A stretch of DNA of 47,388 nucleotides, from positions 1 to 47,388 of the forward strand of contig SKGM01000014.1 in the NCBI GenBank assembly GCA_007117455.1, in the 5' to 3' direction. Source of the DNA: Candidatus Methanomethylophilaceae archaeon (GTDB taxonomy: Archaea; Thermoplasmatota; Thermoplasmata; Methanomassiliicoccales; Methanomethylophilaceae). The notes under the pieces were generated by a model. That model ran no database searches, had not been told where the DNA came from, and saw only the letters and a list, made by a program, of their open reading frames with translations. Positions 5,266 through 41,228 of the stretch are shown piece by piece (the stretch's first letter is position 1; every line of letters starts with the position of its first letter). The position numbers and the translations under genes were made by a program.

Positions 5266-5341
5266 GCGGACGTAGTGTAGCTGGTTATCACTTGAGCTTG
5301 CCAAGCTTAGAACTCGGGTTCAAATCCCGGCGTCCGCACCA
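5266..5341 (+). tRNA. tRNA-Gly (anticodon GCC)
   Basis: The cloverleaf can be folded by eye. The acceptor arm is GCGGACG (5266-5272) with CGTCCGC (5331-5337). The D-arm is GTGT...ATCAC with a GG pair in the loop. The anticodon stem is TGAGC/GCTTA (one G-U pair) with loop TTGCCAA and anticodon GCC at 5300-5302. The T-arm is TCGGG-TTCAAAT-CCCGG. The discriminator is A5338, and CCA at 5339-5341 is present in the DNA. The mature body is 73 nt and no intron is visible. It decodes GGC and GGU. Confidence 0.97.
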
Positions 5342-5950
5342 ACCTCTTCTCTCAAGTTCATCCATTATCGCCTGCTTATTGTGTCCACCGACCCTCGCCC
5401 CTCGGCGGGGAAGGACAATAGCCCCTCTGGATCGCAACTCCTCAAACAAAGACTCCGAGGTCACGAACAGCATCCCTTCCATATCGCCCTGCCACTGCTC
5501 AGCTATCACCTCGACATGCGCCCGGGGAAGGAATATCAGCATGACGTCATATTGGTCATGCATCCTCATCAAGGATTCAATAATTCCGAAACGCATATAC
5601 AGACTACTGACCGCTTCCTTTCCTTCTATCGGGCAGTGATATGGAAACGCTGGTTGTCCCGCGTCCACCAATCCATACCTTGCTGATACAATTGCCAGAT
5701 CGGAGAATGGAATGGATCCGTGCAGGCTCCTGACCTCCGTGAATCTTCCTCTGAGTATAGATGCCAAAGGGCCTTGGAACGGTTCCAGAAGAGGTGATTC
5801 CGGCTCTGGCCCATCACAACCTGGAATATCCGACCCCGATGACCTGAGTGCTTGGACATAGGGCGCACAATCCTCTGGCCTCATGGCTCTGGCTGTCATA
5901 CCTGGCGGCAGGAACATCTCAGAGTCATTGCTCAAGCACAAAATCCTCAT
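5288..5950 (-). CDS. Conserved hypothetical protein, DUF6884-like, running antisense into tRNA-Gly
   Basis: 220 aa with no signal peptide or membrane segment. The block DLAIVSARYGLVD followed by PYHCPIEG resembles the 'SAKYGLV' motif of DUF6884/YaaA-like proteins, which often carry a nucleotide-related fold. This is a weak family suggestion and no function can be assigned. The start ATG at 5950 follows a minus-strand TATA-like ATACAAATATC (5973-5983) at leaderless distance. The last 17 codons (from WCGRRD) are read antisense through tRNA-Gly and the stop lies opposite the D-arm. No earlier stop exists in frame, so either the two genes truly overlap tail to tail or the C-terminus is an artefact of a lost stop. 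Confidence 0.65.
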   Translation of the reverse strand: MRILCLSNDSEMFLPPGMTARAMRPEDCAPYVQALRSSGSDIPGCDGPEPESPLLEPFQGPLASILRGRFTEVRSLHGSIPFSDLAIVSARYGLVDAGQPAFPYHCPIEGKEAVSSLYMRFGIIESLMRMHDQYDVMLIFLPRAHVEVIAEQWQGDMEGMLFVTSESLFEELRSRGAIVLPRRGARVGGHNKQAIMDELERRGWCGRRDLNPSSKLGKLK

Positions 5951-22416: not shown

Positions 22417-23334
22417 ATGAGATGCGACCATTGTAATGATGATGCGGTGACCTTCATCCGCTACAACGGCAGCCACCTCTGCGCCACCCACTTCATGTCC
22501 TATGTGGAGAGGAGGGTCAAGAGGGAGTTGAGGAGACAGGTCGACCTCTCCCGGGGATCCACCATCGGTGTGGCGGTGTCAGGCGGTAAGGACAGCATGG
22601 TGGCATTGGACATCATCAGGCGCACCTTCGGAAAACGAAGGGATGCGGAAATACACTGCCTTTCGGTGGACGAGGGTATCGATGGTTACAGAAGGCCAAG
22701 TCTGGATATCGTCCAACGTTACTGTGACGAGCATGCGATCGAGTATCACGAACGTTCCTTCTCGGATATGTTCGGAATCGATATGGACCGGATAGCTCCC
22801 AGGAGTGGTGTGAGCAGCCCCTGCACCTATTGTGGGGTGCTGAGACGAAAATGCCTTAATTCGATGGCCAAAGAGGCTGGATGCGCCCATTTGGCCACCG
22901 GTCTAAACCTCGATGATACTGCCCAGTCACTGATGATGAATTTCGTCAGGGGGGATATGGAGAGGATGGCGAGGATGGGGCCTCATCTCAAGGTCCAACC
23001 TGGCCTGGTACCGAGGATTCAACCTCTCAGATCCATACCGGAGAAGGAATCATACCTGTACGCGATATGCTCCGGATTGGACTTCCATGATGGGGATTGC
23101 CCGTATTCGGAAGCCGCACTGAGGAATCAGTACCGCTCCTTGGTGGATGAGCTGGAGAGGCGTTCACCAGGGTCAAAATTCAGCATACTCTCTTCTTACG
23201 ACCAGATATCGCCTCTGCTCAGAGAGGGGATGCCCCAATCTGAGCTACGGGCCTGCCGTTGCGGTGAGCCGACACTCGGCGAGGAATGCAAAGCCTGCAA
23301 CCTGTTGGGCAATCTGCCCGGGGATATTCCCTGA
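22417..23334 (+). CDS. ncsA: tRNA 2-thiolation protein NcsA/TtuA (Ncs6-like)
   Basis: PP-loop adenylating enzyme that thiolates wobble (or T-loop) uridine in tRNA, using a ubiquitin-like sulfur carrier. 305 aa. The N-terminal zinc finger uses Cys3, Cys6, Cys22 and His25. The PP-loop is SGGKDS (55-60). Catalytic/Fe-S cysteines lie in SPCTYCGVLRRK. GLNLDDTAQS is the conserved family block. The C-terminal zinc finger is CRCGEP...ECKAC. Its start lies 19 nt after orc1/cdc6. Confidence 0.94.
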   Translation: MRCDHCNDDAVTFIRYNGSHLCATHFMSYVERRVKRELRRQVDLSRGSTIGVAVSGGKDSMVALDIIRRTFGKRRDAEIHCLSVDEGIDGYRRPSLDIVQRYCDEHAIEYHERSFSDMFGIDMDRIAPRSGVSSPCTYCGVLRRKCLNSMAKEAGCAHLATGLNLDDTAQSLMMNFVRGDMERMARMGPHLKVQPGLVPRIQPLRSIPEKESYLYAICSGLDFHDGDCPYSEAALRNQYRSLVDELERRSPGSKFSILSSYDQISPLLREGMPQSELRACRCGEPTLGEECKACNLLGNLPGDIP

Positions 23335-23341
23335 AAAAAAA
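23334..23341 (-). terminator. Oligo-T terminator for mgtE
   Basis: Eight As on the plus strand (TTTTTTTT on the minus strand) lie 33-40 nt after the mgtE stop. This fits an archaeal poly-T terminator and touches the ncsA stop from the other side. Confidence 0.55.
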
Positions 23342-23373
23342 GAATGGGTAAGTCGTTTGTCCCCTGGGCTGGT

Positions 23374-24711
23374 TCAAATACCGAGGTACCAGGTCGCTAT
23401 CCCGAAGTACACCAGGACGCCGAGTATGTCGGCGATCGATGTGACCAGGGGGCCACTGGCGGTCGCTGGGTCCAGTTTTATCTTCGACAGCAGGAACGGC
23501 AGTGTCATCCCAACCAAAGATCCGATGATGACCACACAAACCATGGTGAGTGATACGACGACAGCGACCTCTGGACCGGCGCGATACCATCCCAGGGCGG
23601 AGACGGCTACTGCCATCGCGACACCCAGGGCGAGTGCGACCTTCAACTCCTTAACCATCATCTGCGCCCAGTCGCGCATCTTGACATCGCCGATGGCCAT
23701 GGCCCTGACGGTCAGAGTCGCTGCCTGTGAGCCAGCGTTACCGCCGCTGTCGATCAGCAATGGAAGGAAGAAGACCAATGCGATCGCCGCTTCGATGGTG
23801 CCCTCGAAATATGCTATGCCCGCACCGGAGAACACGTTCATTCCCACCAGGGCGAGTAGCCAAGGTATCCTCGCTCTGAAAAGCATCTGGAAGCCCGCTT
23901 CTCTGATGTTCATCGTCGGCATCGGTGAATGGATGGCCGCCAGCCTGTGGAAGTCCTCAGTGGCCTCTTCCTCAGCGACGTCCATGACGTCGTCGAAGGT
24001 CAGCGACCCAACCAATCTGCCTTCGCTGTCCAGTACAGGGATGGCTGGCAGGTCCGTCGTCATCATGAGGTCGCGCGCCGTCTCACGGTCATCGGTGGTC
24101 TTGACGTAGACCTCAGGAAGGGTCGCCAGATCCACAAGCATAGTGTCAGGCGACTCCTTGAGCAGGGAACCCAGGCGAAGATGGCCTAGATACGCCCTCT
24201 TGGAATCGATAAGATAGACCATGTCCATCTCATCAGGGCGCAAGGGGGAGGCCCGGATCCTGTCCAGCATAGCAGCCACGTTGTGTCCTTCCCTGCCGCT
24301 CAGATAGCGCGGCGACATGTTACGACCTGCACTGTCATCGGGGAAGCCCATCAGGACATTGATGAGCTCCCTTGATCTGGGATCCATCTTGTTCACCAGT
24401 TTCTTGGTGACCCTTGCCGGTAGCTCATCCAATAGACGTACCCGGTCATCCACGTCGAGGCTCTTGAAATATTCAACCACCTCATCCTTCTCGAACAGAT
24501 TGATGAGGTCGGCCTGCTTTGAAACCGAAAGTCCGTCGAACACATCGATGGCCAGATCCTTGGTCAGCAACCTGAAGGCTATCACCAGGTCTGTCCCGTC
24601 CAGCTCCTCGAAAATTCCTATCAGATTCGTCAGCCAGGTCTGATTGAGGAGGTCTTTGAGCTCGTTGAGCTCAGCGTTTGCTATCATTCTTCTTACTCTC
24701 ATTGGGGTCAT
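23374..24711 (-). CDS. mgtE: Magnesium transporter MgtE
   Basis: Mg2+ channel/transporter, 445 aa. Cytosolic N-terminal helical domain (residues ~1-130, LLDELPARVTKKLVNKMD), two CBS domains (GRNMSPRYL..., ...PAIPVLDSEGRLVGSLTFD), a plug helix (EEEATEDFHRLAAIHS), then five membrane helices. The first ends NVFSGAGIAYFE. The ion-path helices include LPLLIDSGGNAGSQAATL and the last carries SIADILGVLVYF, with the conserved Asp at the Mg site. GGAGG lies 9 nt before the ATG. Preceded by an M-box riboswitch. Confidence 0.96.
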   Translation of the reverse strand: MTPMRVRRMIANAELNELKDLLNQTWLTNLIGIFEELDGTDLVIAFRLLTKDLAIDVFDGLSVSKQADLINLFEKDEVVEYFKSLDVDDRVRLLDELPARVTKKLVNKMDPRSRELINVLMGFPDDSAGRNMSPRYLSGREGHNVAAMLDRIRASPLRPDEMDMVYLIDSKRAYLGHLRLGSLLKESPDTMLVDLATLPEVYVKTTDDRETARDLMMTTDLPAIPVLDSEGRLVGSLTFDDVMDVAEEEATEDFHRLAAIHSPMPTMNIREAGFQMLFRARIPWLLALVGMNVFSGAGIAYFEGTIEAAIALVFFLPLLIDSGGNAGSQAATLTVRAMAIGDVKMRDWAQMMVKELKVALALGVAMAVAVSALGWYRAGPEVAVVVSLTMVCVVIIGSLVGMTLPFLLSKIKLDPATASGPLVTSIADILGVLVYFGIATWYLGI

Positions 24712-24778
24712 AGGACCATCCTCCCGCGCAATGCGCGATACAGATCGTCCGGCCCCTTGGCCCAGAAATGACTGATAG
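24712..24778 (-). promoter_or_regulatory. Expression platform between M-box and mgtE
   Basis: The 67 nt hold a GGCC-AAGG-GGCC hairpin and a CGCGC-ATT-GCGCG hairpin that directly abuts the mgtE Shine-Dalgarno GGGAGGATGG. There is no T-run, so a bacterial-style intrinsic terminator is absent. Control of ribosome access is the more likely mode. Confidence 0.6.
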
Positions 24779-24949
24779 GTTCAGGCACCTCTAGTCGAGC
24801 TTTGGCTTCACAGGACGTAGACCATATCGGTCAGCTGCCTTAGGCAGAGCCTTATGCCGGCAATGCCTGCTCTACCCGTTGGCATCTCTCGATGTTTCCG
24901 GGCAGCAGCCTGTGTTCCTGTGGTAACCTCACCTAACGAGGCCTTGAAC
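24779..24949 (-). ncRNA. M-box (ykoK-type) magnesium riboswitch upstream of mgtE
   Basis: Minus-strand leader of mgtE. It contains the conserved M-box blocks in order. GTTAGGTGAGG is at 24937-24927. GGCTGCTGCCCGG leads into AACATCGAGAGATGCCAACG and GGGTAGA (about 24908-24872). GGCATAAGGC is near 24858-24849. GCAGCTGACCGATATGG follows. GAAGCCAAAGCTC is near 24809-24797. These match the layout of the Bacillus subtilis mgtE leader block by block. P1 closes with GTTCAAGGCCTC (24949-24938) against GAGGTGCCTGAAC (24791-24779). In this class Mg2+ compacts the RNA and lowers transporter expression. The gene context (mgtE) agrees. The class is known mainly from bacteria, so an archaeal copy with its own TATA box is notable. 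Confidence 0.95.
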
Positions 24950-24973
24950 GATCTAAATCGCTTATAAAAAGAA

Positions 24974-24991
24974 GATTTATAAAAAGGTTTT
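24974..24991 (-). promoter_or_regulatory. TATA box of the M-box/mgtE transcript, overlapping glyA terminator
   Basis: Minus-strand CCTTTTTATAAATC (24974-24987) is centred about 26 nt before position 24954, five bases upstream of the riboswitch P1 stem. The same T-rich stretch immediately follows the glyA stop, so it can also end glyA transcription. A second TTTTTATAAG lies at 24961-24970. Confidence 0.6.
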
Positions 24992-37950: not shown

Positions 37951-39330
37951 CTAACGGGGCCTGACCTTCTCCGCCTCCGCCAACATGACCCTGACTGTCA
38001 ACCATGCCCAGATCAATACCAGCAGTGAACCGGCTATCTCACCGAGGGTCTGACCCCACCATATCCCCACCAGCCCCATCCTTCCTCCGAGTATGTATGC
38101 TGGAACAAGGGTCAGTACCAGATTTCGGATTATCGTACCTACCAAGGCCCTGTTGGCCATTCCCACGCCTTGGAACATAGCGGCCGCGACACCGCCCAAT
38201 CCTATGAACGGAAGGAATAGGACGCTTATCCTTAAGAACAGGACCATCCCCTCTGTCAGATGGGCCGTATCCTCTGAATAGGTGAAAATCAGGACCGCTT
38301 CGTAGGCGAACACCCCTAGGAGTAGGGCTATGAGGGCCATGGAAGCCCCGGTCACCCAATTACCATAGTTGAACGCCTGCGAGAGTTTATCGTAACGTTT
38401 GGCGCCGTAAGCGGCGGCACATATCGGCACTATGGCACCAGCAATGCCCATGTAGGGCAGCATAGCTATCTGCAGCAGCCTCCAGCCACTGGAGAATATC
38501 GCCACGCCGTCAACGCCGCCATAGAGCATCACCACCACATTCAGGATGAAGGCCGAGATGGACAGTACTATCATCTCAGCAGCGGAAGGTATCCCTATCC
38601 TGAGGATCTCCCACACGGTGCCGGGTGAATATTCCATTCCCCGTATGTTGATATTCAGGTATGCTCCCTTACCTGGGAGGTACCAGTATAGGGTTACGAT
38701 GATCGCCACTGAGAATGAGAGGATCGATGCCCATGCCGCCCCCGCGACACCCAGGCCCAAAGTGTAGATGAAGATGGGGTCCAGGATTATGTTCAAAAGG
38801 GACGCCAGTATCATGATGATCATCGCCCTTTTCACCGCCCCCTCCGACCTCATTATACTGTTGGTGACCACGGCGAGGAAGATGATTATGGAACCGAGGA
38901 AAATCACCCTGCCGTATTCCAGTGTCATCGTGGCCACATCCCCGCCGCCGACGAATGCGAATATGCGGTCAGCGTAGACATAGAGCGGAATTGTGAGTGC
39001 CAGTGGTATCAGTACCGCCAGCAGCATAGCGTGCTTCGCAGCTGAATCTGCCCCCGCCTTATCGTTCTGACCGATGCGTTTGGCTATCACCGCTGATGCG
39101 CCTATGCCCAACCCATTGGCCAGACCTATGAGTATGAAGAATACCGGGAACACAAGCCCCACCGCGGCCAATGCATCAGGGCCAAGACCGGCGACCCAAA
39201 TGGCATCGAAGAGGTTGTAGACGGTCTGGGCGAGCATCGCGATTATAAGTGGGAGCGCCATGCGCCTCACTGCCCTCTTGGGATCCCCCAAAAGGGTGTC
39301 GATGCCTTCGGTCTGCCCTTCCCTGTCCAT
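37951..39330 (-). CDS. MATE-family multidrug/Na+ antiporter (copy 1)
   Basis: 459 aa, about twelve TM helices in two homologous halves. Family blocks: PLIIAMLAQTVYNLFDAIWV, GLANGLGIGASAVIAKRIGQ, and VMLYGGVDGVAIFSSGWRL in the second half. The N-terminal IDTLLGDPKRAVRR matches the upstream paralogue, so the two arose by tandem duplication. ATG 39330 aligns with the paralogue start; a GTG at 39363 is the alternative. It probably has its own promoter (TTAATATACC, 39351-39360). The stop is TAG. Confidence 0.93.
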   Translation of the reverse strand: MDREGQTEGIDTLLGDPKRAVRRMALPLIIAMLAQTVYNLFDAIWVAGLGPDALAAVGLVFPVFFILIGLANGLGIGASAVIAKRIGQNDKAGADSAAKHAMLLAVLIPLALTIPLYVYADRIFAFVGGGDVATMTLEYGRVIFLGSIIIFLAVVTNSIMRSEGAVKRAMIIMILASLLNIILDPIFIYTLGLGVAGAAWASILSFSVAIIVTLYWYLPGKGAYLNINIRGMEYSPGTVWEILRIGIPSAAEMIVLSISAFILNVVVMLYGGVDGVAIFSSGWRLLQIAMLPYMGIAGAIVPICAAAYGAKRYDKLSQAFNYGNWVTGASMALIALLLGVFAYEAVLIFTYSEDTAHLTEGMVLFLRISVLFLPFIGLGGVAAAMFQGVGMANRALVGTIIRNLVLTLVPAYILGGRMGLVGIWWGQTLGEIAGSLLVLIWAWLTVRVMLAEAEKVRPR

Positions 39331-39350
39331 GGGCGGGCTGAGACCATCGG

Positions 39351-39360
39351 GGTATATTAA
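39351..39360 (-). promoter_or_regulatory. Internal TATA box for the second MATE gene of the operon
   Basis: Minus-strand TTAATATACC lies between the two MATE genes, 26 nt before the ATG at 39330. The downstream exporter could therefore be expressed independently of MarR. Confidence 0.45.
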
Positions 39361-39367
39361 CACTGGT

Positions 39368-40735
39368 CTAGACCGTTGTGCTGAGCCTTCTTATGGTGAT
39401 CCTGACCCAGGCGAATACTATCAACGAACTGATGACATTGGCGGAGCAGAGTCCGACCCAGATTCCGATAAGACCGAATCCCAGGACCACTCCCAGTATA
39501 TAGCAAAAGAGCACGGAGAGTATGACCGCCCGGAATATGGTGGCGATCAGGGCACGGACCCCCATCCCCATACCTTGGAAGGTCGCGGATGACAGCATTC
39601 CGAAGGCGACTCCCGGGATCATGAATGCGAATATCCTGATGAAGACCACCAAGTCATCGAAAAGATGCTTTGAATCTGCTGACCATGTGAATAAGGTCGT
39701 GACCTGCGGAGCGAAAATGAACAGGAAGAGTAGGAGCACACCGCCTATGCCCAGACCGAATCTGACCGCATACAGATGGGAGGTGGATAGTTTGTCCCAA
39801 CTTCGGGCCCCGAAGGCCGCCCCAGTCACTGGCGTGACTGCACTGGCTACGCCTTGTATGGCCACGATGGCCATTGACACCACCCTCCATCCAGTGCTGT
39901 AGATCGCCACCCCATCGGTGTCATCCACCATCAGTATCAAGGCGATGAGTACGAACTGCGTCAATGCCATTGATGCATACTGCAGAGATGCTGGAGCACC
40001 GACCGCGAGCACCTCACGGTTGACATTTTTGCTCCAGGTATACTGTCTGAGTTCAAGGCGGACGAAGGTGTCCTTGCCGGCCAGATATACATGCAATAGG
40101 GCCAATGAGGTTATACCGAAAGCGACAACCGTGGCCCATGCGGCTCCGGCTATCCCCATGTCCAGGCCGTAGATGAATATCGGATCCAATATTATGTTCA
40201 ACACTGACCCGAGAGCGAGATATATCGATGAGCGCCGTGCGTCACCTTCGCCCCTGAGAGTGGCGGAGAGGACGCTGGCGAGCATTATGGTCACTGCTCC
40301 GCCGAAGACCACCCTTCCATATTCAGTTGCCAATGGGGTGACATCTCCCGCACCCATGGCGATGAAGATGTCCTCAGCGAGGACGAACAGCACTACAGAC
40401 AGGACAACTGACGCCAATATCGTCAGAACAAGGGTGTGGGACAGGACCCTGGCGGCCCCGGCTGTATCCCTGGCACCTATGCGACGGGCTATGGCTGACG
40501 AGCCTCCGATACCGATACCGGCTCCGATCCCCATTATCACGAAGAATATCGGGAATGCGAATCCTACTGCCGCAAGTGCATCCGAACCCAGACCAGAGAC
40601 CCATATGGCATCGAAGAGATTGTAGGCGGTCTGAAGGCTCATAGCGATTATCATCGGGATCGACAGACGCCTTATCGCACTCTTGGGATCCCCCAGAAGC
40701 GTATCCACGCCTCTGGACCTATCGGTTTCACTCAT
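39368..40735 (-). CDS. MATE-family multidrug/Na+ antiporter (copy 2)
   Basis: 455 aa with twelve predicted TM helices. N-terminal VDTLLGDPKSAIRRLSIPM, then LQTAYNLFDAIWVSGLG and GIGIGGSSAIARRIGARD. The fourth-helix region has YGRVVFGGAVTIM and RGEGDARRSS. Closely paralogous to the next gene downstream. Its start overlaps marR by 8 nt, so it is translated from the same mRNA as the regulator. The stop is TAG. Substrate unknown. Confidence 0.93.
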   Translation of the reverse strand: MSETDRSRGVDTLLGDPKSAIRRLSIPMIIAMSLQTAYNLFDAIWVSGLGSDALAAVGFAFPIFFVIMGIGAGIGIGGSSAIARRIGARDTAGAARVLSHTLVLTILASVVLSVVLFVLAEDIFIAMGAGDVTPLATEYGRVVFGGAVTIMLASVLSATLRGEGDARRSSIYLALGSVLNIILDPIFIYGLDMGIAGAAWATVVAFGITSLALLHVYLAGKDTFVRLELRQYTWSKNVNREVLAVGAPASLQYASMALTQFVLIALILMVDDTDGVAIYSTGWRVVSMAIVAIQGVASAVTPVTGAAFGARSWDKLSTSHLYAVRFGLGIGGVLLLFLFIFAPQVTTLFTWSADSKHLFDDLVVFIRIFAFMIPGVAFGMLSSATFQGMGMGVRALIATIFRAVILSVLFCYILGVVLGFGLIGIWVGLCSANVISSLIVFAWVRITIRRLSTTV

Positions 40736-41189
40736 CCCTGAGACCTACAGACACGTTGTCGTGCATCTTCTGGAGCAGGCGCTCCATCTCCCTCAGCTCC
40801 TCATCGCTCAAACCGCAGATTATCGTTGACTCCAACTCCGCCCTGATCCTCCCCAACCTCTCCATGGCCCCTTTACCTTCATCGGTAAGACTGAGACGGT
40901 AGTTACGACGGTCCAGGGAATCCCTCTCCCTCTTTACCAGGCCTGCTTCCTCCAGACGGGTCATGCTTCGGGCCACGGTGCCTTTGTCCAAGCCCATGGC
41001 AGCGGCGACGGTACCCTGGTTTATCCCTTCATTCTCACAGAGCATGAACATCATGGGGAACTGACCTGAACTGATTCCAATATCTCCCAATCTGGATTTG
41101 ATGAAATTGTGACAGTCCCGATGGATCATGGATATCAACCTGAGCCGGGATATCGGGCAGCTCTCGTAGTCGCAGAGGGGGAATTGCAT
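40728..41189 (-). CDS. MarR-family transcription regulator
   Basis: 153 aa winged-helix repressor. The helix-turn-helix NQGTVAAAMGLDKGTVARSMTRLE is followed by the wing GLVKRERDSLDRRNYRLSLTDEG, the standard MarR DxRxxxxxLT pattern. The N-terminus has two cysteines (PLCDYESCPIS), which might sense redox or metals. ATG 41189 is chosen; a TTG at 41213 would lie inside the operator. First gene of the marR-MATE-MATE operon, so it likely represses the exporters and itself. Confidence 0.92.
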   Translation of the reverse strand: MQFPLCDYESCPISRLRLISMIHRDCHNFIKSRLGDIGISSGQFPMMFMLCENEGINQGTVAAAMGLDKGTVARSMTRLEEAGLVKRERDSLDRRNYRLSLTDEGKGAMERLGRIRAELESTIICGLSDEELREMERLLQKMHDNVSVGLRDE

Positions 41190-41199
41190 GGTTATGTTT

Positions 41200-41228
41200 G
41201 GTTGTTTATGCAACCTTGTTATTTATTG
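41200..41228 (-). promoter_or_regulatory. marR promoter and operator dyad
   Basis: Minus-strand TATA CAATAAATAAC (about 41218-41228) predicts a start near 41196. A perfect dyad GGTTG-N6-CAACC (41200-41215) lies exactly between box and start. A wider TTGCAT...ATGCAA pair brackets the same region. This is a good autorepression site. Confidence 0.55.

Follow-up and report, generated by a model that had tools for sequence, protein, structure and literature searches.

A probable M-box magnesium riboswitch ahead of mgtE in a Methanomethylophilaceae archaeon

M-boxes have been treated as bacterial RNAs (PMC4072509). An initial annotation of a contig from a Candidatus Methanomethylophilaceae archaeon placed one in the leader of mgtE, which raises the question of whether this RNA is a true member of the class, whether it belongs to an archaeal chromosome, and where it came from and how it might act there. 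We analyzed the whole stretch of DNA (47,388 nucleotides; the window) and searched archaeal and bacterial genomes for related copies. Judging from sequence comparisons, we consider it highly probable (about 0.88) that mgtE of this archaeon is under the control of a genuine M-box Mg2+ riboswitch.

The aptamer and the gene it precedes

The locus comprises the following features, where G000 is the genome of the window and G001-G005 are its congeners:

24780-24947, minus strand: M-box (ykoK, RF00380) Mg2+ riboswitch aptamer, full length (cmscan 153.1 bits; covariation, 13 archaeal copies)
23374-24711, minus strand: mgtE, full-length CBS-domain Mg2+ channel/transporter of bacterial type, 445 aa (TIGR00400; Pfam)
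23299-24991, no strand assigned: M-box plus mgtE segment (congener loci compared with the window by blastn; in G000 and G001, not in G002-G005)

Rfam cmscan matched RF00380 (Magnesium) on the minus strand from 24947 to 24780, covering model positions 1-169 of 169 with 153.1 bits (E 4.1e-35), which lies 109 bits above the gathering score of 44 bits. This agrees with the identity originally assigned from the hallmark sequence blocks of the class, all of which were found in the order claimed, and 55 of the 60 strongly conserved (upper-case) consensus positions are matched by the window aptamer. The M-box is located upstream of mgtE with a spacing of 68 nt. The mgtE product scored 345.6 bits with TIGR00400 (cut-off 232.75), and Pfam identified the MgtE_N (PF03448), CBS (PF00571) and MgtE membrane (PF01769) domains.

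The initial annotation had also tied its proposal to covariation among archaeal relatives, and the M-box structure does covary. When 13 archaeal copies were aligned on the Rfam structure, 92.1% of cells were paired, compared with 29-41% when the structure was slid by 1-3 columns; changes on both sides were seen in 21 of the 46 pairs, and none of 500 shuffles gave a value as high. With a full-length score over the threshold, a conserved core, a covarying structure and a position in the leader of a Mg2+ transporter gene, the window M-box is a member of RF00380. Because the RNA is a canonical M-box, the class is a known one and the novelty lies in the extension of its range at the level of domains. 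The M-box is single-copy in the draft genome (RF00380 search, E 2.3e-37). The same genome encodes a second MgtE protein, which is two-domain and SLC41-like (G000:C22:30766-31803), and no M-box was found elsewhere in it.

Riboswitch classes documented in archaea are few, and the workings of their expression platforms with archaeal transcription and translation machinery are little explored. The fluoride riboswitch is common to bacteria and archaea. So is the TPP riboswitch, which as of 2013 was the only widely distributed riboswitch found in archaea (PMC3766115). Both are like the M-box described here in being present in the two domains, but differ from it in RNA fold and ligand. In the literature searched, with subscription journals mostly outside its scope, we found no published description of an M-box from archaea, and automatically annotated public archaeal genomes may already list such matches. 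The present copies extend the M-box to a second domain of life and at least two archaeal phyla.

An archaeal chromosome and a conserved site

The genome of the window is a draft of 70 contigs and is 68% complete, a state that would suit an assembly chimera or bacterial contamination in which the M-box and mgtE are bacterial. The initial annotation had called the surrounding chromosome archaeal, and this is borne out by RfcS, Orc1/Cdc6, archaeal TopA and RLI in the window, each above its curated cut-off, and by the conserved gene order in another species of the genus. By blastn, the independent genome G001 has the M-box and mgtE pair at the same site, between glyA and ncsA. The flanks are collinear in four more congeners (G002-G005), where glyA directly adjoins ncsA and the M-box plus mgtE segment is missing. 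The conserved synteny in G001 excludes the bacterial-archaeal chimera against which the initial annotation had cautioned. Further archaeal M-boxes sit in long contigs, including that of G454, which lies within a single contig of 2,138,444 bases in which an archaeal thermosome gene and the M-box gene are ~2.2 kb apart, and the MgtE protein itself falls in an archaeal clade (see below). Based on the congener synteny and the archaeal copies in long contigs we rejected chimera or contamination, which we regard as having practically no chance of being correct.

Within the genus only two of the six genomes carry the M-box. In the glyA tree G001 groups with G002, and G003-G005 group together, a pattern that could have arisen either by loss in two lineages or by movement within the genus. 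Identity between the window and G001 is 90% over the aptamer, compared with 69% over the remaining leader and 66% over the first 600 nt of mgtE. The higher identity of the aptamer indicates selection on the RNA, speaking against an artefact, and points to purifying selection on the window copy.

Archaeal distribution and ancestry

Above the cut-off, M-boxes were found as 13 copies in 12 of ~1,075 archaeal genomes (G000-G1074), distributed over two phylum-level groups. They occur in 4 of 400 genomes in the sample of the window's class and 6 of 147 in its order, in 4 of 393 sampled genomes of the second archaeal phylum (that of G450, Methanolinea), and in two additional genomes of the order of G454. 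All 13 copies precede genes of Mg2+-transporter type. The downstream gene encodes a full MgtE in the window, G001 and G481; a CBS-MgtE without the N domain, over the TIGR00400 cut-off, in G454, G674 (two copies), G932 and G938; an Nramp-family protein of NrmT type in G227, G304 and G445; and an MgtA P-type ATPase in G724 (1204.6 bits, cut-off 610.75) and in G420, where the gene is truncated by the contig end. The association of such different transporter families with one leader RNA supports Mg2+ as the signal, and by analogy with the bacterial class we infer that the archaeal M-box RNAs sense Mg2+. Full-length MgtE genes of the order-mates G277, G404, G298 and G212 were examined as well, and none of the four is preceded by an M-box.

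The NrmT-type genes of G227, G304 and G445 are adjoined by MgtE-N/CBS proteins that have no membrane domain:

L119:7286-8647, MgtE-N/CBS protein beside an NrmT-type gene
L121:3919-5205, MgtE-N/CBS protein beside an NrmT-type gene
L123:5187-6470, MgtE-N/CBS protein beside an NrmT-type gene

M-box crystals bind Mn2+ too, and these three copies control Nramp-related genes, a family usually tied to Mn2+ or Fe2+, as would be expected if the RNA had been tuned to a different divalent ion, for instance Mn2+. However, the conserved core is kept and the gene in the window is mgtE. Moreover, the M-box-linked Nramp-related proteins belong to the NrmT group, one member of which carries Mg2+ efficiently and rescued the growth of a strain deficient in Mg2+ transport (PMC4072509). 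Overall, tuning to another ion is very unlikely. The three loci resemble the Clostridium NrmT M-boxes in having an Nramp-family gene with a neighboring MgtE-N/CBS protein, but are archaeal, whereas those reported were bacterial, mostly from Clostridia and Deltaproteobacteria (PMC4072509).

Two M-box-like sequences scored below the threshold. One, in a 4.14-Mb contig of G942 (L143:1501-1671, plus strand; 36.9 bits), lies directly before a full-length mgtE and looks like a diverged, decaying or much altered riboswitch. The other, in a 3.54-Mb contig of G1033 (L144:1501-1671, minus strand; 32.8 bits), has no adjacent Mg2+ transporter gene. It overlaps the 3' end of an oppositely oriented leuB-like gene and resembles a decayed or orphan copy. 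Such apparently decayed copies elsewhere in archaea would be compatible with the window RNA being a functionless relic as well. Against this, the window copy, at 153 bits, matches on par with good bacterial copies, its aptamer is far better conserved than the neighboring gene and leader, and its TATA-like box and Shine-Dalgarno sequence are intact. We consider a relic correspondingly improbable, to about the same degree as a change of ion.

The patchy presence within the genus, together with the frequency of M-boxes in a Bacillota sample (133 of 398 genomes, 33%, versus ~1% of the archaeal genomes searched), would fit a recent lateral transfer of a bacterial M-box/mgtE cassette into the genus. 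The protein tree argues against it. Full-length archaeal MgtE proteins, with the exception of that of G212, form one clade (SH-aLRT 100) in which M-box-bearing and M-box-free copies are mixed, and the window MgtE lies in this clade with Methanoregulaceae and other methanogen proteins, apart from all sampled bacterial homologues. The aptamer trees point the same way. These included 13 archaeal sequences (all but G420, with the sub-threshold G942) and a bacterial sample almost entirely of Bacillota; the archaeal M-boxes grouped together with support of 97/95 against 31 bacterial sequences and 98/96 against 39. Without the P1 columns the support was 60/95, indicating that part of the tree signal lies in P1, and a single clade of all 14 archaeal M-boxes was neither supported nor rejected (AU p 0.21). 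In a search for a donor, we scanned the bacterial and Methanoregulaceae loci holding the closest MgtE relatives, and none has an M-box; among the bacterial genomes holding such relatives, only 1 of 47 has one anywhere.

Since most archaeal M-boxes stand apart from the 39 bacterial ones, we consider an ancient archaeal lineage more likely than recent transfer into this genome, the latter being improbable. It is likely, though not proven, that an old archaeal M-box lineage was repeatedly lost or spread among methanogens and that G420 received its copy separately; the G420 copy looks like a bacterial-type arrival of its own. Of the two origins first suggested, lateral transfer or a wider ancestry of the class, the second is thus favored for most copies, while a transfer unique to this genome is not and G420 retains an element of the first. 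A more elaborate scenario, in which an old, archaeal-specific lineage of at least two groups passed its aptamer among mgtE, short mgtE, nrmT and mgtA and coupled it to archaeal platforms acting by occlusion of the start codon or Shine-Dalgarno sequence or by gating of archaeal termination, is possible, and we put it forward tentatively.

Leader features and possible control of mgtE

The region around the aptamer contains the following elements:

24976-24983, minus strand: archaeal TATA-like box TTTATAAA (score reached by 0.4% of dinucleotide shuffles)
24781-24792, minus strand: P1 3' strand AGAGGUGCCUGA, the would-be partner-switching strand (pairs with 24938-24943 in the aptamer)
24764-24776, minus strand: leader block ATCAGTCATTTCT, with which the P1 3' strand may pair instead (predicted pairing)
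24713-24750, minus strand: hairpin partly enclosing the Shine-Dalgarno sequence (predicted; in the window and G001, several pairs changed on both sides)
24719-24724, minus strand: Shine-Dalgarno sequence of mgtE, GGAGGA (ATG 7 nt downstream)

The TATA-like box is located 29-36 nt before the aptamer and is matched in G001 by TTTATATA at almost the same distance, which suggests that transcription starts a few nucleotides before the aptamer. The promoter proposed in the initial annotation is thus supported as far as the box is concerned, the start itself being a prediction. Among the archaeal copies a clear TATA box was seen in the window, in G001 and in a small number of further cases, and most did not score above shuffles; we therefore rejected it as a general feature.

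The M-box of Bacillus subtilis mgtE is catalogued among the riboswitches that terminate transcription (PMC12121620). The window RNA resembles it in its full-length aptamer, conserved core and position before mgtE, but differs in its archaeal host, its archaeal-type promoter and the lack of a bacterial-type terminator: no stem-loop followed by a U-run was found on the transcribed minus strand between 24600 and 25100. By extension from the bacterial class, the three helices would pack and P1 would close when Mg2+ is plentiful, and expression of mgtE would drop. When Mg2+ is scarce, P1 would open, its 3' strand would pair elsewhere in the leader and mgtE would be expressed. The OFF step may act at the translation start, through the Shine-Dalgarno hairpin and a cover over the start codon, instead of through a bacterial-type terminator, and this is the least certain part of the scheme.

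Predicted pairing of the P1 3' strand with the downstream leader, as an alternative to P1, exceeded that in shuffles at five archaeal loci (L003, L006, L131, L132 and L141), and was no stronger than in shuffled leaders in the window and G001. Opening of P1 raised the modelled accessibility of the start region in L131 and L141, and the modelled accessibility of the Shine-Dalgarno sequence and start codon in the window and G001 was unchanged by the state of P1. These models show no switching of the Shine-Dalgarno sequence in the window. We also considered sequestration of the start codon. The GUCAU of the window leader block is complementary to the start codon region AUGAC, and in G001 the corresponding block ATCAGACATTTCT and start codon region AUGUC represent one compensatory change. 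Folding energies support this pairing weakly, the start-codon helix of G001 lying 3.6 kcal/mol above the best fold. We favor control at the level of translation, at slightly less than even odds, with archaeal factor-dependent or U-tract termination as the main alternative. Together with the Methanosarcinales-like copies, this canonical, predicted Mg2+ sensor of methanogen-type archaea provides a directly testable archaeal metalloregulatory RNA.

In the Methanosarcinales-like loci (L131, L132, L135, L141 and L142) a pyrimidine-rich element (ACACTTTCCTTC ... GGTCTCTGTCTTCTGGTC and variants) recurs between the M-box and the gene. This element, which complements the P1 3' strand, may act as an anti-Shine-Dalgarno sequence or a termination signal.

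Elsewhere in the window, a plus-strand tRNA gene (5266-5338) and the end of an ORF on the minus strand (5288-5950) overlap. The last residues of the ORF (RRDLNPS...) read through the tRNA, and its true stop or its annotation may need revision. Finally, two tandem MATE-type efflux genes lie beside a MarR-type regulator gene at 37951-41213.
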